From Tepidamorphaceae bacterium (GTDB taxonomy: Bacteria; Pseudomonadota; Alphaproteobacteria; Rhizobiales; Tepidamorphaceae): a stretch of 64,000 bases of DNA. Each line of letters begins with the position of its first letter. Position 1 is the stretch's first letter. Under the pieces are notes generated by a model. It searched no databases. It saw nothing but the letters and a program-made list of their open reading frames with translations, and was not told where the DNA came from. A program made the translations under genes and the position numbers. Shown piece after piece: positions 9,054 to 25,623 of this stretch. The DNA lies in contig JANQNT010000004.1 in the NCBI GenBank assembly GCA_028279445.1, positions 1-64,000 on the forward strand, given 5' to 3'.

Positions 9054-12000
9054 CTACTCGGCCGCGTCGGCGAGCGGCGCCGGCGGATCGCGGAACGCAT
9101 CCAGCGCCGCCTCCCACTCGATCCGCGCCGCGGCGAGATTGGCCGCCTTGACGTGACCGAAGCCGCGCACCGACTGGACGGCGCCGGCCGCGCGCAGCGC
9201 AGCGCCGAAGTTATCCTCGGTCAGTCCGGCGATGAGTTCGTCGACCATCGCCTCGTAGTCGAGGACAAGCTGCCGCTCGGCGCGCCGCTCCTCGGTGTAG
9301 CCGAAGATGTCGAAAGGCGTGCCGCGCAACCGCTTCAGCGGCGCCAGCAGCCTGAAGCCGGTCATCATCCAGCCGCCGAACCGCAGTTTCGCCGGCGCGC
9401 CGGTCCTGGGATCGGGCCGCGCCAGCAGAGGCGGGGCGAGATGGAAGTTGAGCGTCACCTTGCCGTCGAACCGGCTCGCCACCTGACGCGCGAAACTGCC
9501 ATCGGTATAGAGCCGGGCGACCTCGTACTCATCCTTGTAGGCCATCACCTTGAACAGCCCGCGCGTCACCGTCTCGGTCAGCCTGGTGGAGCCGGGCAGT
9601 GCGGCCGCCTCGGCCTCGCGCATGCGCTCCACGCGCGCCTCGAAACGCAGCGCATAGGCCATGTCCTGATAGTCGGCCAGGAACTCGACACGGCGCTCGA
9701 TCAGTTCCTCCAGGCTTCCCGACAGCTTGCGGACACCCGATGTTGCGGCATCGCGCAGGCCCTGCATGTGCCTGGCGAAGGCACGAGGATCATGCGCCGC
9801 AGAACGCCCCGCGGCGAAGGCGGCAAGATTGCGCGGCACCGTCTGGCCGTTCATCCGGATCGCCTCCTCGATCGACTCGATCGACACCGGGATGCGCCCA
9901 AGCTGGCAGGCAAAGCCCAGCATGAAGATGTTGGCCATGATGGAATCGGCGAACAGCTTCGTGGCAATGCCCGTCGCATCGACCATGTGCACATGGTCGG
10001 CGCCGGCGCGCTTGCGGATCGCCCGTTTCAACCGCTCGGTCGGCAGCGCGTAGTTCACGTCGTGGGTGAAGTCGCCGGGGAACTGCTCATGCGTGTTGAC
10101 CACCATCTGCGTGGTGCCCGGATTGACCGCGGCCAACACCTTCTGGCCGCCGGCGACGACGATGTCGCAGCCAAGCACCAGATCAGCGCCGCCGGCGGCG
10201 ACGCGGATGGTGGCGATATCGTCGGGGTGTTCGGCAATCTGCAGGTGCGACATCACCGAGCCGCCCTTCTGCGCCAGCCCGGCCATGTCGATGATGCCGC
10301 AGCCCTTGCCCTCCAGGTGCGCGGCCATGCCGATCAGTGCGCCGATGGTCACCACGCCGGTTCCTCCGACACCGGTGACGACAATTCCATAGGGCCGATC
10401 GAGCGGGGACCGTTCAGGCTGCGGCAGGTCGCCGGCCTCGAAGCCGCCGCCGGCGGCGACCGCGCGCTTGAGCTGGCCACCCTTGACCGTGACGAAGCTC
10501 GGGCAGAAGCCCTTCACGCAGGAGAAGTCCTTGTTGCAGGCGGACTGGTCGATCTGCCGCTTGCGGCCGAACTCGGTTTCCACCGGCGCGATGGCCACGC
10601 AGTTGGACTGCACGCCGCAGTCCCCGCAACCCTCGCAGACCAGCTCATTGATGACGACGCGCTCGTCGGGATCGGGATAGAGCCCGCGCTTGCGGCGCCG
10701 GCGCTTTTCCGCCGCGCAGGTCTGGTCGTAGATGATGACCGACAGCCCCGGCACCTCGCGCAGGCTCGCCTGCACATCGTTCAACTCGTCACGGTGACGC
10801 ACCGTGGTTCCCGTCGGCCATTGGGTGCCGGCCGGGTACTTGTCGGGCTCGTCGGTGACGACGACCACCGGGTTGGCGCCTTCGGCGGCGACCTGGGCGG
10901 CGATCTCCGGCACGGTCAGGTTGCCTTCGTGGGCCTGGCCGCCGGTCATGGCCACGGCATCGTTGTAGAGGATCTTGTAGGTGATGTTGACGCCGGCCGC
11001 CTTGGCGGCGCGGATCGCCATGTAGCCGGAGTGGTTGTAGGTGCCGTCACCCAGGTTCTGGAACACGTGGTCGCGGTTGGAGAACGGCGCCTCGCCGATC
11101 CAGTTCGCGCCCTCGCCGCCCATATGGGTGTAACCCTCGGTGTCGCGATCCATCCACTGCACCATGTAGTGGCAGCCGATGCCGGCATAGGCGCGGCTTC
11201 CCTCCGGCACGAGCGTCGACGAGTTGTGCGGGCAGCCGGCGCAGAAATACGGCGTGCGTGTCGCGATACTCGCGGTTTCGGCGAAGGTCTTCTGGAATGC
11301 CCTGAGCTCAGCGACGCGCGCCTGAAGCGCCTCGTCGCGCACCTCGCGCAGGACACGCTCACCGATTGCAATGGCGATGTCGTTGGAATCGAGCGCGCCC
11401 TTGACCGCGAACAGCACCTCGCCGTGTTCGTCGCGCTTGCCGATGATCCCCGGCGCGTTGGCCCGCCCGTAGAGCTGCTCGCGGATTTGCGCCTCCACCA
11501 GCATGCGCTTTTCTTCCACGACGATGATCTGCTTCAGGCCATCAGCGAAGGTCTCGATGCTGCCGGACTCCAGCGGCCAGGGCGAGGCGAGCTTGTAGAC
11601 GCGAAGCCCCAGCCGCGCCGCCTTGACCTCGTCGATGCCGAGATCGGCCAGCGCCTGCATGACATCGAGGTGGGACTTGCCGAGCGAGACAACGCCGATC
11701 CTCGCGCCGCGCCCGCCGCGGAAAATCATCCGGTCGAGCTTGTTGGCGCGCAGGAAGGCCAGCATGGCGTAGCGCTTGTGATCGTGCAGGCGTGCTTCCT
11801 GCTCCAGCGGATGATCGTTGGGGCGGATGTTCAGCCCGTCCGGAGGCATCGCGTAGTCGTCGGGGATGACGATGCTGACCCGGTCGAGCGAGCCATCGAT
11901 GGAGGCGGTCGACTCGACCGTATCCTTGACGCCCTTCAGCGCGGTCCACACGCCGGCATAGCGCGACAGGGCGTAACCGTAGAGCCCGTAGTCGATCAGC

Positions 12001-12584
12001 TCCTGCACGCCGGCCGGATTGAGGATCGGCATCATCACGTCGACGAAGGCGAATTCCGACTGATGCGCGGTGGTGGAGCTTTCGCAGGTGTGATCGTCGC
12101 CCATCAGCGCCAGCACGCCGCCATGGGGCGAGGTGCCGGCGAAATTGGCATGGCGGAACACGTCGCCGGACCGGTCGACGCCCGGCCCCTTGCCGTACCA
12201 CATGCCGAAGACGCCATCGAAGCGGCCCTCGCCGCGCATTTCCGCCTGCTGGGAACCCCACAGCGCGGTGGCGGCCAGGTCCTCGTTGACGCCCGGCTGG
12301 AACACGATGTCGTTGGGGTTGAGTACGCCCGCGGCGCGCATGAACTGCTGGTCGAGCCCGCCGAGCGGGGAGCCGCGATAGCCGGTCACGTAGCCGGCCG
12401 TGTTCAGCCCGGCGCGCCGGTCGCGCTCCTTCTGCATCAGCATCATGCGCACCAGCGCCTGGGTGCCGGACACGAAGACACGCGATTTGGTCAGGTCGTA
12501 TTTGTCGTCGAGCGTGACGCGGTTCACGCGCGCACCCGCACCGCCCTCGGCGGGGATTTGCGGATTCGACGTCTTCGCGCCCAT
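9054..12584 (-). CDS. Indolepyruvate ferredoxin oxidoreductase, fused IorA-IorB
   Basis: Oxidative decarboxylation of aryl or branched 2-oxo acids to acyl-CoA with ferredoxin, in aromatic amino acid breakdown. The 1,176-aa chain is the single-polypeptide type. It has an N-terminal pyrimidine-binding region (TGYRGSPLGGLDQQF), a ThDP-binding region with GDGTYNHSGYMAIRAA, and a Cys-rich stretch (CEGCGDC, CNKDFSC, CVKGFCP) that could hold an Fe-S cluster. The gamma domain begins at VVTGVGGTGVVTIG and carries MAGLAQKGGSVMSHL. The start is ATG 12584, with GGGAGGAACGC just ahead of it. Transcription probably starts near 12645 from a promoter with a palindromic spacer. Confidence 0.9.
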   Translation of the reverse strand: MGAKTSNPQIPAEGGAGARVNRVTLDDKYDLTKSRVFVSGTQALVRMMLMQKERDRRAGLNTAGYVTGYRGSPLGGLDQQFMRAAGVLNPNDIVFQPGVNEDLAATALWGSQQAEMRGEGRFDGVFGMWYGKGPGVDRSGDVFRHANFAGTSPHGGVLALMGDDHTCESSTTAHQSEFAFVDVMMPILNPAGVQELIDYGLYGYALSRYAGVWTALKGVKDTVESTASIDGSLDRVSIVIPDDYAMPPDGLNIRPNDHPLEQEARLHDHKRYAMLAFLRANKLDRMIFRGGRGARIGVVSLGKSHLDVMQALADLGIDEVKAARLGLRVYKLASPWPLESGSIETFADGLKQIIVVEEKRMLVEAQIREQLYGRANAPGIIGKRDEHGEVLFAVKGALDSNDIAIAIGERVLREVRDEALQARVAELRAFQKTFAETASIATRTPYFCAGCPHNSSTLVPEGSRAYAGIGCHYMVQWMDRDTEGYTHMGGEGANWIGEAPFSNRDHVFQNLGDGTYNHSGYMAIRAAKAAGVNITYKILYNDAVAMTGGQAHEGNLTVPEIAAQVAAEGANPVVVVTDEPDKYPAGTQWPTGTTVRHRDELNDVQASLREVPGLSVIIYDQTCAAEKRRRRKRGLYPDPDERVVINELVCEGCGDCGVQSNCVAIAPVETEFGRKRQIDQSACNKDFSCVKGFCPSFVTVKGGQLKRAVAAGGGFEAGDLPQPERSPLDRPYGIVVTGVGGTGVVTIGALIGMAAHLEGKGCGIIDMAGLAQKGGSVMSHLQIAEHPDDIATIRVAAGGADLVLGCDIVVAGGQKVLAAVNPGTTQMVVNTHEQFPGDFTHDVNYALPTERLKRAIRKRAGADHVHMVDATGIATKLFADSIMANIFMLGFACQLGRIPVSIESIEEAIRMNGQTVPRNLAAFAAGRSAAHDPRAFARHMQGLRDAATSGVRKLSGSLEELIERRVEFLADYQDMAYALRFEARVERMREAEAAALPGSTRLTETVTRGLFKVMAYKDEYEVARLYTDGSFARQVASRFDGKVTLNFHLAPPLLARPDPRTGAPAKLRFGGWMMTGFRLLAPLKRLRGTPFDIFGYTEERRAERQLVLDYEAMVDELIAGLTEDNFGAALRAAGAVQSVRGFGHVKAANLAAARIEWEAALDAFRDPPAPLADAAE

Positions 12585-12947: not shown

Positions 12948-13820
12948 TCAAACCGCACCATCGAGAGAGGCGATCACCCCATAGTGCTCCGGCCGGCGAT
13001 CGCGAAAAATGCCCCAGGAGGCGCGGCGCACGGCGAGATCGTCGAGATCGAAGCTGGCGGTGAGCACGCTCTGGCTCTCGCGATCCGCCCCGGCGACCTT
13101 CTGGCCTTGGCTGTCGGCGATGAAGGATGAGCCGTAGAAGGAAAGCTCGGTGCCGTTCTTGCCCGGTTCGGTGCCGATGCGGTTGGAGGCCACCAACGGC
13201 ATCAGGTTGGCGCCGGCGTGCCCGCACATCACCGCCTGCCAGTGGGCCGACGAATCCCAGTCCGGCTCGATCAGCTCCGAGCCGATGGCCGTGGGATAGA
13301 ACAACATCTCCGCGCCCATCAGCGCCATGGAACGGGCGCACTCGGGAAACCACTGGTCCCAGCAGATGCCGACCCCGATGCGCCCGAAGGCGGTGTCCCA
13401 GACCTTGAAGCCCGTGTCGCCGGGATTGAAGTAGAATTTCTCCTGGTAGCCGGAGCCTTGCGGGATGTGCGTCTTGCGGTAGACGCCGAGATTGCACCCA
13501 TCCGCATCAACGATGGCGATGGCGTTGAAATAGGCGTTGTTGGCCTTCTCGAAGAAGGACACCGGAAGCACCACGCCCAGTTCCTTGGCGAGCACTGAGA
13601 ACCGCTTGATCGCCGGATTCTCGTCAACCGGCGTGGCGCGCAAAAAGTGCTCCGGCAGCTCGTCCTGACAGAAGTACCAGCCTTCGAACAGTTCCTGCAC
13701 CAGCACGATGTTCGCGCCCTTGCCCGCCGCCTCACGGATCAGCGCCTCCGCCCGGTCGATGTTCTCGGTGACGTCATCGCTGCAGGCCATCTGTGTGGCG
13801 GCGAGGGTGACGGTGCGCAT
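12948..13820 (-). CDS. aguB: N-carbamoylputrescine amidase
   Basis: Nitrilase-family enzyme that hydrolyses N-carbamoylputrescine to putrescine, CO2 and ammonia. The catalytic triad is visible as Glu in LVQELFEGWYF, Lys in YRKTHIP, and Cys in GVGICWDQWFPE. The length (290 aa) is normal. ATG 13820 (MRTVTLAATQ) is the family-like start. The open frame extends further upstream but only through a RIME-like repeat. It lies downstream of aguA on the same strand, 137 bp away, so the pair completes the agmatine-to-putrescine route. Confidence 0.93.
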   Translation of the reverse strand: MRTVTLAATQMACSDDVTENIDRAEALIREAAGKGANIVLVQELFEGWYFCQDELPEHFLRATPVDENPAIKRFSVLAKELGVVLPVSFFEKANNAYFNAIAIVDADGCNLGVYRKTHIPQGSGYQEKFYFNPGDTGFKVWDTAFGRIGVGICWDQWFPECARSMALMGAEMLFYPTAIGSELIEPDWDSSAHWQAVMCGHAGANLMPLVASNRIGTEPGKNGTELSFYGSSFIADSQGQKVAGADRESQSVLTASFDLDDLAVRRASWGIFRDRRPEHYGVIASLDGAV

Positions 13821-13856
13821 GGGGTGGTTCCTCAAATAACTCTGGGCTTCGAACCT

Positions 13857-13959
13857 AGAACCGTTTCGCTTTGCGTTGAATCGCTCAACCGGCTCTATGT
13901 CTTTGTTTTCACGCAATTCCGGACGGAAAACCGGTATCCACTTTTCCTGGAATTGCTTT
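13857..13959. repeat. RIME-like two-palindrome element, copy 2
   Basis: First palindrome: AGAACCG...CGGCTCT (13857-13896, one mismatch) with inner GTTGA-ATCGC-TCAAC. Second palindrome: GCAATTCC...GGAATTGC (13913-13956) enclosing GGAAAA...TTTTCC around ACCGGTATCCAC. It fills the aguA-aguB gap. Confidence 0.75.
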
Positions 13960-14980
13960 AGGCCGCCGGCTCCTGCTGGGTTATGCAATGGACGCCGCCG
14001 CCGCCCTCGAAGATGCGGATCGCCGGAACGCCGACCACCTCGCGGCCGGGATAGAGTTTTGCGAACAGGTCAGCCACCTCCGCGTCCCGCGCGTCGTCGA
14101 AGATGCCCATGATCACCGCGCCGTTGCACACATAGTAGTTCACGTAGGAGAGCGACAGCGGCATGCCGTCGGCGTCCTGGCGGTCGGCGGGGGCATCGAG
14201 CACGATCACCTCCAGATCGCGCCCCGCCGCATCCTTTGACGCCTGCAGAATGGCAATGTTCTCGGCCGCCGCCTCGAAATCGGGATGGCTTGAGTCCGGC
14301 TGGCCATGGGCCACAACGACGCCGGGTTTCACGAAACAGGCGAGCGTGTCGATATGCCCGTCGGTGCCAAGCGGCCCCTCATCGGCGACAACACCGCGCT
14401 TCAGCCAGATGGCGTGGCGGGTGCCGAGCAGTCGGTGGCATTCGGCTTCCACCTCCGCGCGCGTCCAGCTCGGATTGCGGTTCTCGTTCAGTTGCACGCT
14501 CTCGGTAAGCAGCAGCGTGCCCTCCCCGTCCACATGGATGCCGCCACCCTCGTTGACGAGCCTTGAAGGGATGCGCTCCGCGCCGGTTTCACCGGCGATG
14601 AAACGGGCGATCAGCGCATCCGCCTTGCAGTCGGGAAAGCTGCGTCCGCCCCAGCCGTTGAAGGTCCAGTCCACCGCACCGAGCGTGCCGTCGCTGCCGA
14701 TGACGAAACTCGGACCGATGTCGCGCATCCACCCGTCGGCGATTGGCTGCTCGACGACGCTGACGCCCTTGTCGAGATAGCTGCGGGCGTGCTCGCCCAT
14801 GCCCGGCGGGGCGACCATCACCACCGGCTCGAAGCGGCAAATCGCGTTCGCCGTGGCGGACCATGCCCGATAGGCGCCGTCTTCGTCGCCGGCCAGCACA
14901 TCCGGGTTCGACGGCCAAGCCATCCAGGTGCGTTTGTGGGGCGCCCATTCCGGCGGCATGGTCCAGCTCTGCTCGGTCAT
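13958..14980 (-). CDS. aguA: Agmatine deiminase
   Basis: Guanidino-group-modifying enzyme that converts agmatine to N-carbamoylputrescine and ammonia. Family signatures are MPPEWAPHKRTWMAWP near the N terminus, NEGGGIHVDGEGTLL, and the catalytic Cys in GGGGVHCITQQEP close to the C terminus. The length (340 aa) is normal for bacterial enzymes. ATG 14980 has GAAG nine bases upstream. An in-frame ATG at 14986 is an alternative. The gene precedes aguB and diverges from a TRAP operon. A perfect 13-bp hairpin lies in its leader. Confidence 0.92.
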   Translation of the reverse strand: MTEQSWTMPPEWAPHKRTWMAWPSNPDVLAGDEDGAYRAWSATANAICRFEPVVMVAPPGMGEHARSYLDKGVSVVEQPIADGWMRDIGPSFVIGSDGTLGAVDWTFNGWGGRSFPDCKADALIARFIAGETGAERIPSRLVNEGGGIHVDGEGTLLLTESVQLNENRNPSWTRAEVEAECHRLLGTRHAIWLKRGVVADEGPLGTDGHIDTLACFVKPGVVVAHGQPDSSHPDFEAAAENIAILQASKDAAGRDLEVIVLDAPADRQDADGMPLSLSYVNYYVCNGAVIMGIFDDARDAEVADLFAKLYPGREVVGVPAIRIFEGGGGVHCITQQEPAA

Positions 14981-15349
14981 TGTCATTTTCTTCGCATTGG
15001 CAAATGGCATGAAATGCCGCCACAAATCCGGGGCTCCGGCTGGTCGGCACGATCGGAAAACCCGATCGTGCCGAGCGAACAAATCTGTTTCCCGACATCA
15101 CCGCGCGCCGCTAGGCTGGTCAAGTGCGAACAACATCGACTTGGGCGCGTCCGGAGATAAAAAGCAAATTGATGCGCGACTTTGGTCCTGTTGCCGCAGA
15201 CAGGGCCGGCCGATACAACAAACGCGGCCTGATTGGGGAGGGGTTCGCGGCCAACGTCGATTTGACTGGCGTTCGCAACGCGTTTGGCTTTCAATCGGGC
15301 CGGGGCCAAGAAATCAAGACAGCAAACCCAAGGCAGAGGTGGAGTAACA
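14981..15349. other. Divergent control region between aguA and the TRAP operon
   Basis: A gene-free stretch of 369 bp between divergent start codons. It holds the perfect hairpin at 15044-15074. The rest shows no repeat family or clear -35/-10 pair that I would defend. Confidence 0.5.
15044..15074. promoter_or_regulatory. Perfect 13-bp inverted repeat upstream of aguA
   Basis: TCGGCACGATCGG and CCGATCGTGCCGA flank the five-base loop AAAAC. The repeat is 64-94 bp upstream of the aguA start and about 280 bp from the TRAP binding-protein start. It could be an operator or a leader hairpin. There is no T-run on the minus strand after it. Confidence 0.5.
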
Positions 15350-16447
15350 ATGCAACGACGTCAATTTCTCAAGGGCGCGGTAATCACGGCCGGCGCCACC
15401 GGGGCTGCAACGCTGGCTGCACCGGCGATCGCGCAGGCCAAGACCGACATGGCCATCGTGTCGACCTGGCCGCGGGACTTCCCGGGTCTGGGCATTTCGG
15501 CGCAGCGCCTTGCGGCGCGCATCGGCGAGCTGACCGAGGGCCGCATCAACGTCACCTACTTCGCCTCCGGCGAGAAGGTCGGCGCCTTTGACGTGCTCGA
15601 CGAGGTCGCCGCCGGCAACAGCCAGGCCTATATCGGCGCCGATTACTACTGGAAGGGCAAGCACCCGGCCTGGGCTTACTTCACCGCCGTTCCCTTCGGC
15701 CTGACCTATGCCGAGATCGACGCCTGGATGAAGTATGGCGGTGGTCAGGAGCTGCATGACGAAGTCGCCGGCGGCTTCGGCATCAAGGGCTTCCCGTGCG
15801 GCAACACCGGTGTTCAGATGGGCGGCTGGTTCAACAAGGAGATGGAGAGCGCCGACGACTTCAAGGGTCTGAAGATGCGCATCCCCGGTCTCGGCGGTGA
15901 CGTTCTCGCCAAGCTCGGCGCATCGCCCGTCGCGCTGCCCGGCGCCCAGATTTACGAGAACCTGGTCTCCGGCGCCGTCGACGCCACCGAGTGGGTCGGC
16001 CCCTACAACGACTACTTCATGAAGTTCTACGAGGCGGCCAAGTACTACTACTATCCCGGCATGCACGAGCCGGGATCCCAGTTGCACCTGGGCATGAACG
16101 CCGAATGGTGGGGCGGGCTTTCGAAGAACGACCAGAACATCATCATTGCCGCCTGCGCGGAGGAAAACGCCCACCAGATGGCGGAGACCAACGCGCGCAA
16201 CGGTGAGCACCTCACCAAGCTCATCACCGATCACGGCGTCGAGCTTCGCGAGTTCAACGACGATATCTACGACGCCTTCTACGAGGCGGCTCAGGAAGTA
16301 TTCGAGGAAACCCGCGATCACTCCGATCTCGCCAAGAAGGTGCACGACTCGTTTGCCGCCTTCCGCGATGACATCGGCGGCTGGATGGTGGCGGCCGAGG
16401 CCAGCTACCTGCGCCAGCGCAACCGCGTCACGGGCGTCGAGCTCTAG
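15350..16447 (+). CDS. TRAP transporter substrate-binding protein, 2-oxo acid/lactate (TakP-like) family
   Basis: Periplasmic receptor of a TRAP importer. The N terminus MQRRQFLKGAVITAG is a clear twin-arginine signal (RRQFLK) ending near APAIAQA, so it is exported folded. The ligand region MRIPGLGGDVLAKLG, the segment DATEWVGPYND and the YYYYPGMHEPGS stretch match the subfamily that includes Rhodobacter TakP and the Thermus lactate receptor, so a 2-oxo or 2-hydroxy acid is the inferred substrate. ATG 15350 has GGAG six bases upstream. The two membrane genes follow at 79 and 20 bp spacing. Confidence 0.88.
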   Translation: MQRRQFLKGAVITAGATGAATLAAPAIAQAKTDMAIVSTWPRDFPGLGISAQRLAARIGELTEGRINVTYFASGEKVGAFDVLDEVAAGNSQAYIGADYYWKGKHPAWAYFTAVPFGLTYAEIDAWMKYGGGQELHDEVAGGFGIKGFPCGNTGVQMGGWFNKEMESADDFKGLKMRIPGLGGDVLAKLGASPVALPGAQIYENLVSGAVDATEWVGPYNDYFMKFYEAAKYYYYPGMHEPGSQLHLGMNAEWWGGLSKNDQNIIIAACAEENAHQMAETNARNGEHLTKLITDHGVELREFNDDIYDAFYEAAQEVFEETRDHSDLAKKVHDSFAAFRDDIGGWMVAAEASYLRQRNRVTGVEL

Positions 16448-16526
16448 GGCGCCGCGCCAGACACGACAGCAAGGCCGGGACGGGGCAATTGCGCTCCGTC
16501 CCGGTCACCGTTGGGGAAACGCGATC

Positions 16527-17546
16527 GTGACCGCCGTCGATGTTGCCGAGGCCGGCGTGGAGGACACTCCGCCCACCGGTTCCCGATCCGTCGCGACAGC
16601 CGTCCGGCTGTTCGGATGGATCATGCTGGCGGTGCTCGCCGGCTTCATCTTGAACGTCTATCTCAATTTCTGGCAGGACTTCCCCGGCATCGAACCGGTC
16701 TTCGCCGGAAGCGACGTCGGCGCGCTGCCCTTCGTCCAGCTTGCCCTCTACGCCCTCTTCATCTTTGTCGCCGTCGCCTACGTGCTGCGCGACAAGACGG
16801 TGACGCTGCGCGCCGATTCAAGACACATCTCCGACATCAACGCCTACTTCATCCGCGCCATGTTCTTCGCGGTGCTGTTGGTCGGCTGCATCGACGCGGT
16901 GATCTCGTTCGTGCGCGTCGAGGGCTTCCTGCCGGCCATCGTCGGAGATGACATGGCCGCAGCGCTTGGCCGGTCAAGCTGGCGCGGCGCCTATGTGCAC
17001 ATGCCACTGGTCGGCGTATCGCTGGTCATCGCGTACTTCGTGCGCACCCTCGGCTTCATCTGGCTTGCGCTGATGGTTGTGGTGGCCGAGCTGCTGATCG
17101 TCATCGGCCGCTTCATCTTCTCCTATGAGCAGGCCTTCATGTCCGATCTGGTGCGCTTCTGGTACGCGGCGCTGTTCCTGTTCGCCAGTGCCTACACGCT
17201 GCTGGAGGAAGGCCATGTGCGCGTCGACGTCTTCTATGCCGGTCTCGCGGACAGGACGAAGGGCTTCCTCAACGCCTCCGGCACGCTGGTCTTCGGCATC
17301 CCGCTGTGCTGGGTCATCCTGATCATCGGTGCCGGTTCCAAGCAATCGATCATCGTCAGTCCGATGATCAGCTACGAGGTTACCCAGGCAGGCTTCGGGC
17401 TTTACGTGAAGTACATGATGGCCGGCTTCCTGGCTGTCTTCGCCATCTCCATGCTGATCCAGTTTCTCAGTTACCTGCTGACCGCAGTGGCTGACATGCG
17501 CGGCGACCCCGGCGGCCGCCAGCATGTCGTAGGCGCTGCTCACTAG
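16527..17546 (+). CDS. TRAP transporter small permease, enlarged (DctQ-like)
   Basis: Small membrane subunit of the TRAP importer. It starts with GTG at 16527, with GGGGAAA eight bases upstream. Typical DctQ proteins have four membrane helices in ~160-200 aa. This one is 339 aa with about eight hydrophobic segments, and the normal DctQ core is its C-terminal half (the GHVRVDVFYAGL motif lies there). The N-terminal half adds roughly four helices of unknown role. It is followed after 20 bp by the large permease. Confidence 0.8.
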   Translation: MTAVDVAEAGVEDTPPTGSRSVATAVRLFGWIMLAVLAGFILNVYLNFWQDFPGIEPVFAGSDVGALPFVQLALYALFIFVAVAYVLRDKTVTLRADSRHISDINAYFIRAMFFAVLLVGCIDAVISFVRVEGFLPAIVGDDMAAALGRSSWRGAYVHMPLVGVSLVIAYFVRTLGFIWLALMVVVAELLIVIGRFIFSYEQAFMSDLVRFWYAALFLFASAYTLLEEGHVRVDVFYAGLADRTKGFLNASGTLVFGIPLCWVILIIGAGSKQSIIVSPMISYEVTQAGFGLYVKYMMAGFLAVFAISMLIQFLSYLLTAVADMRGDPGGRQHVVGAAH

Positions 17547-17566
17547 GTCCCGCGCAGGCAGTCCCC

Positions 17567-20233
17567 ATGGAACTCTTCTTCATCCTGATCCTGATCGGCA
17601 TCATGGCCTACGCGCTGGGCTCCGGGTATCCGGTCGCCTTCGCGCTGCCGGGCTCGGCCATCGTCACCATCGCGCTTGCCGCAGGCCTCGGCTACCTGTT
17701 CTACGGCGATGTCGATTTCTTCTTCACCCATGGCGGTCCGGGCCAGTGGCTCAGCGCCGGGGTCACCAATTACCGCGGCGTCTACTGGGAGGCGGAACGC
17801 GACACGCTGATTGCGATCCCGCTGTTCGTGTTCATGGGGATCATGCTGCAGCGCTCCAAGATCGCCGAGGACCTGCTGGTCACCATGGCCCAGCTCTTCG
17901 GCCCGATCCCCGGCGGCCTTGGCATCTCGGTCGTCTTTGTCGGCGCACTGCTGGCTGCCACCACCGGCATTGTCGGCGCAACCGTGGTTGCCATGGGCCT
18001 GATCTCGCTGCCGGCGATGCTGCGCAACAAATACTCGCCCGCACTGGCCACCGGCACCATCGCCGCATCCGGCACGCTGGGGCAGATCATCCCGCCATCC
18101 ATCGTGCTGATCATCCTCGCCGACCAGCTTGCCAGCGCCGTCGACCAGGCCGGCACCAGCCGCACCGCGCTCTACAAGGAGTCCACCGGCGAGCTCACCA
18201 TGCCGTCGGACTTCGCGGTGACCTCCACCAGCGCCGGCGAGATGTTCCTGGGTGCCTTCGTCCCCGGCCTCATCCTGGTCGGGCTCTACATGCTGTTCAT
18301 CCTCGGCTTCGCGCTGGCGCGCCCGCACATGGCGCCCGCTGTGCCGCGCGAGGGCGGTATCGACCGCGCCTTCGCCTTCAAGGTGTTCATCACCCTGATC
18401 CCGCCGCTTGCGCTGATCTTCATGGTGCTGGGCTCGATCATCTTCGGCATCGCGACCGTCAACCAGGCCGGCGCCATCGGCGCCGTCGGTGCCATGCTGA
18501 TGGCCGGCTACCGCCTGCGCGAGGGCAAGCCCGGCGCCTTCACCCCGTCGATCATGGCGATCATCGCGGTACTGGGCATCTTCGTGCTGCTGAGCTTCCA
18601 CACCGTCAACGTCAAGCGCATCGAGACATCCCAGGACGTCACCGCGCTGATCATCGCGATTATCGCCGTGTCGCTGCTGCTGATCGCCATCTTCTGGAGC
18701 GGCTGGCGCACGCTGAAGATCGAGGACACCCTGCGCGGCGTCATGATCGACACCGCCAAGACCACCTCGCTGGTGTTCATCATCCTGCTCGGCGCGGCGA
18801 TGCTGACGGCGGCCTTCCGCGCCTTTGGCGGCGAGGACCTGGTGAAGGACTTCCTCGGCGGGCTGCCGGGCGGCTTCTGGACCCAGTTCGTCATCGTCAT
18901 GCTGGTCATCTTCATCCTCGGCTTCTTCCTCGACTTCATCGAGATCGCCGTGGTGGTGGTGCCCATCGTCGCCCCGATCCTGCTCGCCGACCCGTCCGCC
19001 AACGTCACCGCCGTGTGGCTCGGCGTGATGATCGGCCTCAACATCCAGACCTCGTTCCTCACACCGCCCTTCGGCTTCGCCCTGTTCTATCTGCGCGGGG
19101 TGGCACCGGCGACGGTCAAGACGATCGCCATGTACAAGGGCGTCATCGCCTTCATCGCGCTGCAGCTCATTGCGCTGGTCATCGTCGGCACCAATCCGGG
19201 ACTGGTGAACTACCTGCCCAACCGCGCCTCGCTGCTGTCGGACACCGCGCCACCGCCGAAGAACCCGCGCCTGCAGTTCTGCATGGAAGAGTTCACCGCC
19301 GAGCGCTTCGCCGCGGACGGCCAGCGCATCGAGGCGGCCATCGAGGCGGCATCGACGATCGACGTGAGCTACCTGCCCGAGGATATGCGTGAAGAACTCG
19401 CCGAGGGCATCGGCAAGACCGCCGACGCGATCCCGCTGATGGCGGCGATCGGCGAGGCGCGTCGGGCCATCGAGACCGCGACGCCCGATTACGCGCCGCT
19501 GCACGTGCAGGTGCGTGCGCTGGAACGCGATGCCCGGCGCATCGACAAGGACATCGCCGAGCTTGAGGTCATCGTGCAGCGCTCCGGTCCCAACGGTGTC
19601 TTCTCCGCAGCGCGCGGCGAGAGTGCGCGCGCAGAAATCGCCGAACTGGAAGCCGGGCGCGACGCGCTGCTGGCGCAAATTCCGGCCGAGTGGGAAGAAC
19701 GCCACAAGGTCTTCGGCGAGCTGCAACGGGCCGAGCAGCAGGCCCGCACCGCCTATCGCCGCAACGCCGACCAGGCCTACGAGCCGCTCCAGGAAGTGAT
19801 CGAAATCGTTCAGGCGACGGATGCGCTGCAAGCGACCGGCGAGAACCTGCGTGCGCTTGCCGGCGCGCTGCAGAGCGCTGCATCCGCGGAAAGCTTCCTG
19901 CAACAGCTTGAGCCGGTGCGCGAAGCGCTTGGCGACATCGCCGGTGCCGGCGACATCCGCAAGGCAATCAACGCGGCACGGCGCGCCATGCGTGGCGATG
20001 AACCCGATTCCGCAAAGGCGGCGGAGGCGCTTAGCGAAGCCGAGGCGCTGCTCGACAGCGAGCTTGCCTGGCGCCGGCAGGCGGCCGAACAGTTGCTGCC
20101 GCAGCTTGCCACCTTCGACGCAGCCATCCGCGACACCATCGGCCTGCGCGGCCAGCGCCGGTTGCCCCGCGAACAGGCGCTCTATGTCGCGGGGTGTTCC
20201 GCAAGCCACCGCAACCTGTCGCTGAGCTTCTGA
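17567..20233 (+). CDS. TRAP transporter large permease with ~340-residue C-terminal extension (DctM-like)
   Basis: Sodium-coupled transport subunit of the TRAP importer. Residues 1 to about 546 are the multi-helix DctM domain, with the PPSIVLIILADQ and GFFLDFIEIAVVVVPIVAP signatures. After NYLPNRASLLSD the chain continues for about 340 residues that are hydrophilic, Ala/Glu/Arg-rich and heptad-like, so a soluble helical or coiled-coil domain, presumably cytoplasmic. Ordinary DctM is ~430 aa. The reading frame and codon use run through unbroken, so this is not a read-through artefact. Operon partners are the Tat-exported receptor and the enlarged small permease. Confidence 0.85.
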   Translation: MELFFILILIGIMAYALGSGYPVAFALPGSAIVTIALAAGLGYLFYGDVDFFFTHGGPGQWLSAGVTNYRGVYWEAERDTLIAIPLFVFMGIMLQRSKIAEDLLVTMAQLFGPIPGGLGISVVFVGALLAATTGIVGATVVAMGLISLPAMLRNKYSPALATGTIAASGTLGQIIPPSIVLIILADQLASAVDQAGTSRTALYKESTGELTMPSDFAVTSTSAGEMFLGAFVPGLILVGLYMLFILGFALARPHMAPAVPREGGIDRAFAFKVFITLIPPLALIFMVLGSIIFGIATVNQAGAIGAVGAMLMAGYRLREGKPGAFTPSIMAIIAVLGIFVLLSFHTVNVKRIETSQDVTALIIAIIAVSLLLIAIFWSGWRTLKIEDTLRGVMIDTAKTTSLVFIILLGAAMLTAAFRAFGGEDLVKDFLGGLPGGFWTQFVIVMLVIFILGFFLDFIEIAVVVVPIVAPILLADPSANVTAVWLGVMIGLNIQTSFLTPPFGFALFYLRGVAPATVKTIAMYKGVIAFIALQLIALVIVGTNPGLVNYLPNRASLLSDTAPPPKNPRLQFCMEEFTAERFAADGQRIEAAIEAASTIDVSYLPEDMREELAEGIGKTADAIPLMAAIGEARRAIETATPDYAPLHVQVRALERDARRIDKDIAELEVIVQRSGPNGVFSAARGESARAEIAELEAGRDALLAQIPAEWEERHKVFGELQRAEQQARTAYRRNADQAYEPLQEVIEIVQATDALQATGENLRALAGALQSAASAESFLQQLEPVREALGDIAGAGDIRKAINAARRAMRGDEPDSAKAAEALSEAEALLDSELAWRRQAAEQLLPQLATFDAAIRDTIGLRGQRRLPREQALYVAGCSASHRNLSLSF

Positions 20234-20348: not shown

Positions 20349-20456
20349 CTAGATCATCCTGTGTTTGGGCTACCTCAACCCAAACACAGAAAAGATGATC
20401 GGTTCTAAAGGGTTAGAGCAACTTGTCTGCGCCGATCCCGGCGCAGGTTGCTCTAG
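20349..20456. repeat. 108-bp double-hairpin repeat, copy 1
   Basis: Hairpin 1: GATCATC (20352) and GTGTTTGGG pair with CCCAAACAC and GATGATC (to 20400). Hairpin 2: TAGAGCAAC...GTTGCTCTA enclosing CTGCGCC/GGCGCAG. A second 108-bp copy at 51621-51728 differs at eight positions. It lies 35 bp before the glutamine amidotransferase start and may sit in its transcript leader. Confidence 0.85.
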
Positions 20457-20491
20457 AGGCACCGCAGACACACAAGACACGGGATCAAGAG

Positions 20492-21256
20492 ATGAGCGAA
20501 CGCTCGGTCATCCTCGTTACCACCGACGTCAAGGACATCGACGTCTACCGCTGGCACGCGACGCCGGAGCCCTATATCCGCGCGCTCGTCGATCACGCCG
20601 ACGCCGCGCCCCTCCTGGTGCCCTCATACGGCGAGGCGCTCGACCTGCGCAGCCTGGTGGCGCGCTGCGACGGTGTGCTGATGACCGGCTCACGCTCCAA
20701 CGTGCACCCGCCCCACTACGGCGAGGAAGAGCACGAAAAACACGGTCCCTTCGACCATGACCGCGACGCGACGACGCTCGCCCTGGCGCGCACTGCCCTG
20801 GATATGGGTGTGCCGCTGTTCGCCATCTGCCGCGGCCACCAGGAACTCAACGTGGCGCTTGGCGGAACCCTGGTCGGCGAAGTGCACGAGGACGACGAGC
20901 GCATGGACCATCGCTCGCCGGATGTCGACGACAACGACGTGCGCTTCCGGCTGGCCCATACGATCACCACGCGCGCCGGCGGCATGCTGCAGCGCATTCT
21001 GGGACCCGAGCCGATCCACGTGAATTCGCTGCATCGCCAGGCGGTCGGCAAGCTCGCCCCCGGCCTGGAGGTCGAGGCGACCGCCGAAGACGGCACCATC
21101 GAGGCGACATCGGTCAGGAATGCCCAGAGCTTCGCGATGAGCGTGCAGTGGCACCCCGAGTACTGGGCCGGCAGGGACTCGCCCTCCACGAAGCTGTTCG
21201 AAGCCTTCGGCGAGGCTGCCCGCGCCCACCGCGCCTCCAGCAGCCAGGCTGCTTGA
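20492..21256 (+). CDS. Class I glutamine amidotransferase-like hydrolase (peptidase C26, PuuD-like)
   Basis: Predicted gamma-glutamyl amide hydrolase, as in polyamine or GABA metabolism. The nucleophile Cys sits in FAICRGHQELNVALGGTL, and the His-x-Glu pair is in VQWHPEYW near the C terminus. VNSLHRQAVGKLAPG is the usual substrate-side loop. The length (254 aa) fits PuuD/YvdE enzymes. I start it at ATG 20492 (MSERSVILVT). The longer frame upstream enters the 108-bp repeat. A link to putrescine made by aguA-aguB is possible but the genes are not adjacent. Confidence 0.85.
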   Translation: MSERSVILVTTDVKDIDVYRWHATPEPYIRALVDHADAAPLLVPSYGEALDLRSLVARCDGVLMTGSRSNVHPPHYGEEEHEKHGPFDHDRDATTLALARTALDMGVPLFAICRGHQELNVALGGTLVGEVHEDDERMDHRSPDVDDNDVRFRLAHTITTRAGGMLQRILGPEPIHVNSLHRQAVGKLAPGLEVEATAEDGTIEATSVRNAQSFAMSVQWHPEYWAGRDSPSTKLFEAFGEAARAHRASSSQAA

Positions 21257-24957: not shown

Positions 24958-25623
24958 ATGGCGGGCGAGGAGCACGGCAACGGCCATCACCGTGGTCATG
25001 ATCATGATCACGACTACAGTGAACTCGACGAGACCGAGCTGCGCGTGCGGGCGCTGGAATCGCTGCTGATCGAGAAAGGCTATGTCGACCCGGCCGCCCT
25101 CGACGAGTTGATCGAGACCTACGAGACGCGTGTGGGTCCGCGCAACGGCGCGGCCGTCGTTGCCCGCGCCTGGAGCGATCCCGCCTTCATGCAGGCGCTG
25201 CGCAACAACGCGACAGCGGCCATCGCCACACTCGGCTTCACCGGCCGCCAGGGTGAGCACATGGTGGCCGTGGAGAACACGGCCAATACCCACAACATGG
25301 TCGTGTGCACCCTGTGCTCCTGCTATCCGTGGCCGGTGCTCGGCCTGCCGCCGGTCTGGTACAAGTCGCCACCCTACCGGGCCCGCGCGGTGTCCGATCC
25401 GCGCGGCGTGCTGACCGAGTTCGGCGTAACGCTGCCGCAAGGCACCAACATCCGCGTCTGGGATTCGACCGCGGAGGTGCGCTACCTCGTCATCCCGATG
25501 CGCCCGGACGGCACTGAGGAGATGCGCGAGGAACAACTCGCTACCCTCGTCACCCGCGATTCCATGATCGGCACCGGCCTGGCGCTGACGCCCGACAAAG
25601 CACGCGCGCAAGGACTGCTGTGA
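24958..25623 (+). CDS. nthA: Nitrile hydratase alpha subunit, cobalt type
   Basis: Hydrates nitriles to amides. The metal-binding claw CTLCSC is at residues 117-122. Thr rather than Ser at its second position marks the non-corrin cobalt type, in which two Cys are oxidised to sulfenic and sulfinic acids. The N terminus is His-rich ([14 protein letters not shown]), as in several cobalt-type alpha subunits. The length is 221 aa. GGAGG lies nine bases before ATG 24958. The beta subunit starts inside its stop codon region (TGATG). Confidence 0.95.

Follow-up and report, generated by a model that had tools for sequence, protein, structure and literature searches.

DctP-type TRAP transporters with a predicted helical C-terminal extension on DctM and a double-length DctQ

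Gene organization of the locus

The window (i.e., the whole 64,000-nucleotide stretch of Tepidamorphaceae contig JANQNT010000004.1 that was analyzed) carries three plus-strand genes at positions 15350 to 20233, which encode a receptor, DctQ, and DctM, in that order (Table 1). All three subunits matched Pfam families above the cut-offs in one cluster (PF03480, PF04290, and PF06808), and by this gene content (i.e., a DctP receptor, DctQ, and DctM encoded together) the cluster is a DctP-type TRAP transporter. It does not have the layout of a TAXI-TRAP system, as the receptor is a DctP protein and Q and M are separate genes. An earlier note, made from the sequence alone, had described both membrane subunits as enlarged, and its coordinates and sizes for DctM and for DctQ (start codon GTG at 16527) agree with those given here. 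It had also recognized a Tat-exported TakP-like receptor: the leader is of the twin-arginine type (MQRRQFLK), the size of the protein is normal for its family, and TakP and SmoM are its closest solved structures, with similarity to TakP extending as far as position 355 of the query.

Table 1. Coordinates of the transporter genes and their features in the window
Feature	Position	Strand	Basis or remark
TakP-like DctP receptor, 365 aa	15350..16447	+	PF03480, E 3e-51; 2hzk TakP, E 3.8e-72
DctQ of double length (about 339 aa) with eight membrane segments	16527..17546	+	Hydropathy, AlphaFold
Additional DctQ half (N-terminal) with four more hydrophobic segments	16527..17042	+	No Pfam family
Canonical DctQ domain	17094..17486	+	PF04290
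DctM, 888 aa	17567..20233	+	PF06808 over core
DctM transport core, residues 1-552	17567..19222	+	Superposition on SiaM (7qha_B)
DctM residues 553-888, C-terminal extension (predicted all-helical and periplasmic)	19223..20230	+	AlphaFold pLDDT about 91
Entry motif TAPPPxNPxLxxC (560-572), conserved, contains C572	19244..19282	+	Orthologue alignment
C-terminal tail IGLRxQxRL...C877...HRDISLxF, conserved, runs to stop codon	20141..20230	+	Contains second invariant Cys

DctM extension

The last ~336 residues of DctM had no match in a Pfam scan of the window protein, and their NCBIfam matches were limited to weak coiled-coil-type models. Sequence searches against solved structures and Pfam likewise returned nothing beyond coiled-coil noise. 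In an AlphaFold model of DctM (mean pLDDT, 82.8), the extension is essentially all helical and is the more confidently modeled part (Table 1). The predicted helices span residues 567 to 595, 605 to 671, 681 to 703, and 709 to 749 and are followed by shorter ones; helix 605-671 has a hydrophobic period of 3.44 residues, which is of coiled-coil character. The model thus bears out the proposal in the earlier note of a soluble helical or coiled-coil domain. A fold search with the whole DctM model linked the region around residues 745 to 842 to cytochrome b562-like four-helix stretches (Z about 9); this candidate was rejected because such a score lies below the meaningful level for helical bundles.

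Alignment of 73 orthologues (58 to 74% overall identity) showed a collinear extension of nearly uniform length. The full 888 residues matched end to end, at 58 to 74% identity, in about 20 of 101 same-order genomes, and the regions fetched around orthologues retained the same subunit lengths and order. The earlier note had considered that the extension might be unconserved among orthologues, but it is conserved end to end. A frameshift or gene-calling artefact is ruled out, as orthologues conserve the 888-residue frame through its final residue. At two loci of one genome (L113 and L052), a TAG stop near residue 353 interrupts the extended DctM frame and both parts are otherwise conserved; this stop may be a sequencing error, a pseudogene mutation, or a readthrough codon. 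In the closest relative (L060 and L061; draft assembly), DctM is split across two frames near residue 455, probably by a frameshift error.

Double-length DctQ

PF04290 covers only the C-terminal half of DctQ. Hydropathy averaged over 74 orthologues gave exactly eight membrane-length hydrophobic segments (the earlier note had counted about eight instead of four), and the long helices of an AlphaFold model (pLDDT, 85) match these segments. The long form measures 300 to 400 aa in 76 loci; DctQs found beside unextended DctMs have 175 to 213 aa and three to four segments. Internal duplication was considered as the origin of the long form and rejected, since the two halves gave no signal against each other (hhalign probability, 0.2), and the whole protein had no significant fold match in the PDB.

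Among 289 genomes from across the class, 20 contain both the N-terminal half of the long form of DctQ and the DctM extension, a co-occurrence with a Fisher P of about 1e-27. Only three genomes (G492, G517, and G581) were candidates for one enlargement without the other, and all three cases are explained by contig ends. Contig ends aside, the extra half was found exclusively alongside an extended DctM. Because it is collinear in its orthologues and co-occurs with the long DctQ in this way, the DctM extension is confirmed as a real domain and not a product of chance.

Clade and distribution

In a tree of DctM cores built with FastTree, the extended proteins formed a single clade on a long branch (support, 1.00), and a single gain of the ~336-residue extension in evolution would be the best explanation of the sequences. 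At the fetched loci, the DctM tail past the last membrane helix was either 2 to 6 or about 220 to 336 residues long, with one exception, in which a frameshift breaks the frame. The nearest unextended relatives end 2 to 6 residues past that helix and are partnered by DctQs of three to four segments.

When one genome per species was scanned by pattern, at least 575 loci with an extended DctM were confirmed; these loci belong to alpha-, beta-, and gammaproteobacteria. The best 80 of these include Stappia, Roseibium, Pannonibacter, Breoghania, other Hyphomicrobiales, and Rhodobacterales, as well as Rhodospirillales-type metagenome-assembled genomes (MAGs) and some beta- and gammaproteobacterial MAGs. 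The extension was present in 7 of the 398 genomes of a broad phylum sample, and its distribution is therefore scattered, not universal. No free-standing extension protein was detected in that sample or in the 289-genome class sample (all matches lay within DctM-length frames), and no viral copies were found. The G000 genome (3.4 Mb) matched the DctM family at about 17 places and thus belongs to a TRAP-rich organism.

Cysteine pair and side of the membrane

Each of the 73 aligned proteins has the same two cysteines in the extension, C572 at one end and C877 at the other. No further cysteine occurs among the 24,189 extension positions of this alignment, compared with 52 at scattered positions in the core. 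Exactly these two also persist in extensions that are divergent or shortened (L193, L194, and L195, one of which is about 100 residues shorter). On the basis of this pattern, C572 and C877 probably form a disulfide staple that joins the first and last segments of the extension.

DctM residues 6 to 557 superposed on SiaM (7qha_B; Z = 33.5, 3.3 Å, 422 of 427 SiaM residues), which indicates that the core has the SiaM elevator fold. SiaM has been reported to be N-out/C-out (PMC9971032), and rare natural M-P fusions carry the receptor on the M C terminus (PMC9352664). Since the core matches SiaM over its full length and the SiaM C terminus lies outside, the extension is predicted to be periplasmic. 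The lone invariant cysteine pair fits an oxidizing compartment and gives independent support to this placement. A periplasmic rather than cytoplasmic position is thus well supported by homology and modeling.

The earlier note had suggested that the extra domain could couple transport to signaling or assembly. Coupling to signaling, to which we assign very little probability, would suit the sensor kinase and response regulator genes that adjoin the transporter at some loci. Families of histidine kinases and response regulators recur in 13 to 18 of the best 80 of the at least 575 loci, and the scanned representatives comprise an sCache_2 kinase, a LuxR-type regulator, a PAS_7 hybrid kinase, and an OmpR-type regulator. 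However, one neighboring kinase has its own sCache_2 sensor domain, so that an extra sensor would be unneeded, and Pfam, NCBIfam, and sequence searches found no signaling domain in the extension. Because separate regulator genes lie beside the transporter and the extension is predicted to be on the periplasmic side (i.e., by the C-out topology of SiaM and the cysteine pair), a signaling role for the extension itself is unlikely. The other half of the suggestion, a role in assembly, is still tenable.

Possible function of the extension

Among several options, our analysis points to receptor docking as the most likely function. As DctM ends outside, a helical extension that follows its last membrane helix would stand in the periplasm, and a C572-C877 disulfide would tie its first and last segments together beside the membrane. 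As a docking arm, the extension would then receive the TakP-like receptor, probably a dimer, or hold it above the elevator, and the four extra DctQ helices would be the membrane-side partner of the arm or a wider stator. We consider it about equally probable that this reading of the extension as a periplasmic arm for the receptor holds or fails.

Within the extension, the membrane-adjacent segments (553-572 and 843-888) have the lowest entropy, and that of the middle is high. Conserved segments next to the membrane are expected of a contact surface near the transporter and thus support docking; contact near the transporter or receptor is likelier than contact at a distant tip. What speaks against docking is the variability of large parts of the domain (about 2 bits per column): a binding surface that took in the whole arm should be better conserved. 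An arm that spans toward the peptidoglycan or an outer-membrane porin, and channels substrate or anchors the transporter there, is improbable: the predicted 67-residue helix (605-671) would reach about 100 Å if straight, but the regions far from both domain ends are the most variable, and Pfam and sequence searches detected no peptidoglycan- or porin-binding family in the extension.

The conserved membrane-adjacent parts would also suit a scaffold, in which the extension and the extra DctQ helices stabilize or oligomerize QM (e.g., as a coiled-coil QM dimer) and take no direct part in handling the receptor. The strict co-occurrence of the two enlargements and the coiled-coil periodicity of the long helix fit such an arrangement as well. 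Nevertheless, characterized TRAP QM units have been described as monomeric elevators (PMC9352664), and close relatives manage without the extension and without the extra DctQ half, so we regard a pure scaffold as rather unlikely.

Docking has a functional precedent in the TAXI claw, which was modeled in contact with its receptor (PMC11574862). TakP forms a helix-swapped dimer (PMC1839085), in which the second protomer was modeled as pointing up from the membrane (PMC9352664). The simplest reading is that the arm could reach this upward second protomer of a dimeric receptor. TakM-type relatives without the extension exist, and if some of these serve dimeric TakP-like receptors, the arm is not generally required. 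Only tentatively do we propose the more specific version, which is doubtful as it stands, that a disulfide-stapled DctM arm and an eight-helix DctQ capture a dimeric receptor and both protomers serve one translocator. If true, this would be a receptor-holding mode that has not been described for TRAP transporters and is used in hundreds of species.

Comparison with known TRAP systems

The earlier note knew of no TRAP precedent for such a domain. At the level of TRAP transporters in general this does not hold, given the TAXI claw (PMC11574862) and the M-P fusions (PMC9352664), whereas for an extension of this kind in a DctP-type TRAP system we found no literature report. The claw of VcGluQM (TAXI-TRAP; DUF3394) is likewise a periplasmic domain at the M C terminus with a proposed role in receptor docking (PMC11574862). 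However, it is mainly beta-sheet and lies between extra membrane helices of a TAXI-type system, while the extension described here is all helical in its model, comes directly after the last membrane helix, includes a conserved pair of cysteines, and accompanies a DctP receptor and a long DctQ; the Pfam scan of the window protein found no DUF3394 in it. The M-P fusion TRAP of Acidaminococcus intestini also carries a periplasmic domain on the M C terminus (PMC9352664), but that domain is the receptor itself. Here the domain is an unrelated, predicted all-helical one that lacks a DctP or other Pfam match, and the receptor gene is separate. The sialic acid transporter SiaQM shares the DctM core fold over its full length (Z = 27 to 33) but has no C-terminal extension and has a Q subunit with four helices. 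TakPQM of Rhodobacter sphaeroides (DctP-type; alpha-keto acids) has the same receptor family and the same six ligand residues; this likeness rests on the receptor TakP, and DctMs that are 46 to 50% identical in related genomes end directly after the last membrane helix.

The clade is thus real and widespread and, as a variant of the DctP-type TRAP transporter, apparently undescribed. It includes culturable Stappiaceae and Roseibium and offers natural experiments on the role of DctQ, which here is of double length in step with the enlarged DctM, and on the docking of dimeric TRAP receptors.

Receptor, substrate, and neighboring genes

The residues that bind the cation and alpha-keto acid in TakP (PMC1839085) are all invariant in 69 of 69 receptors (Y100, Q156, R177, E214, W215, and E240; numbering as in TakP, counted from the ATG). 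The substrate would thus be a cation-bound alpha-keto (or alpha-hydroxy) monocarboxylate. Residues that line the pocket differ consistently from those of TakP (F40 to W, V97 to A, P243 to S/A/G, and V245 to L), so the pocket probably accepts a different side chain. A fused indolepyruvate:ferredoxin-type 2-oxoacid oxidoreductase is encoded near the transporter (9054 to 12584, minus strand), and its orthologues occur near the transporter in 8 of the best 80 of the at least 575 loci. Because of this neighbor and the set of ligand residues, we favor a 2-oxoacid, possibly a branched or aromatic one, as the substrate.

Genes for N-carbamoylputrescine amidase and agmatine deiminase (12951 to 15019, minus strand) are divergent from the transporter. 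This pair is common to only 1 of the same 80 loci (L061) and is therefore weak evidence about the substrate. A gene for a peptidase C26/glutamine amidotransferase (20423 to 21256, plus strand) recurs in 27 of the 80. The product of positions 24958 to 25623 (plus strand) presumably resembles the nitrile hydratase alpha subunit, with a CTLCSC motif, and a similar-looking family occurs in 5 of the 80 (representative, L100:2132-2794).

The extended DctM is immediately followed by another DctQ-DctM pair, an ordinary one with a DctM of about 540 aa, at loci L062, L064, L066, L075, L076, L082, L084, and L140 (at about 10000 to 12300 in each) and also at L056 and L058. No TakP-like receptor gene was detected near this second pair at those loci, where a single receptor possibly serves two translocators.
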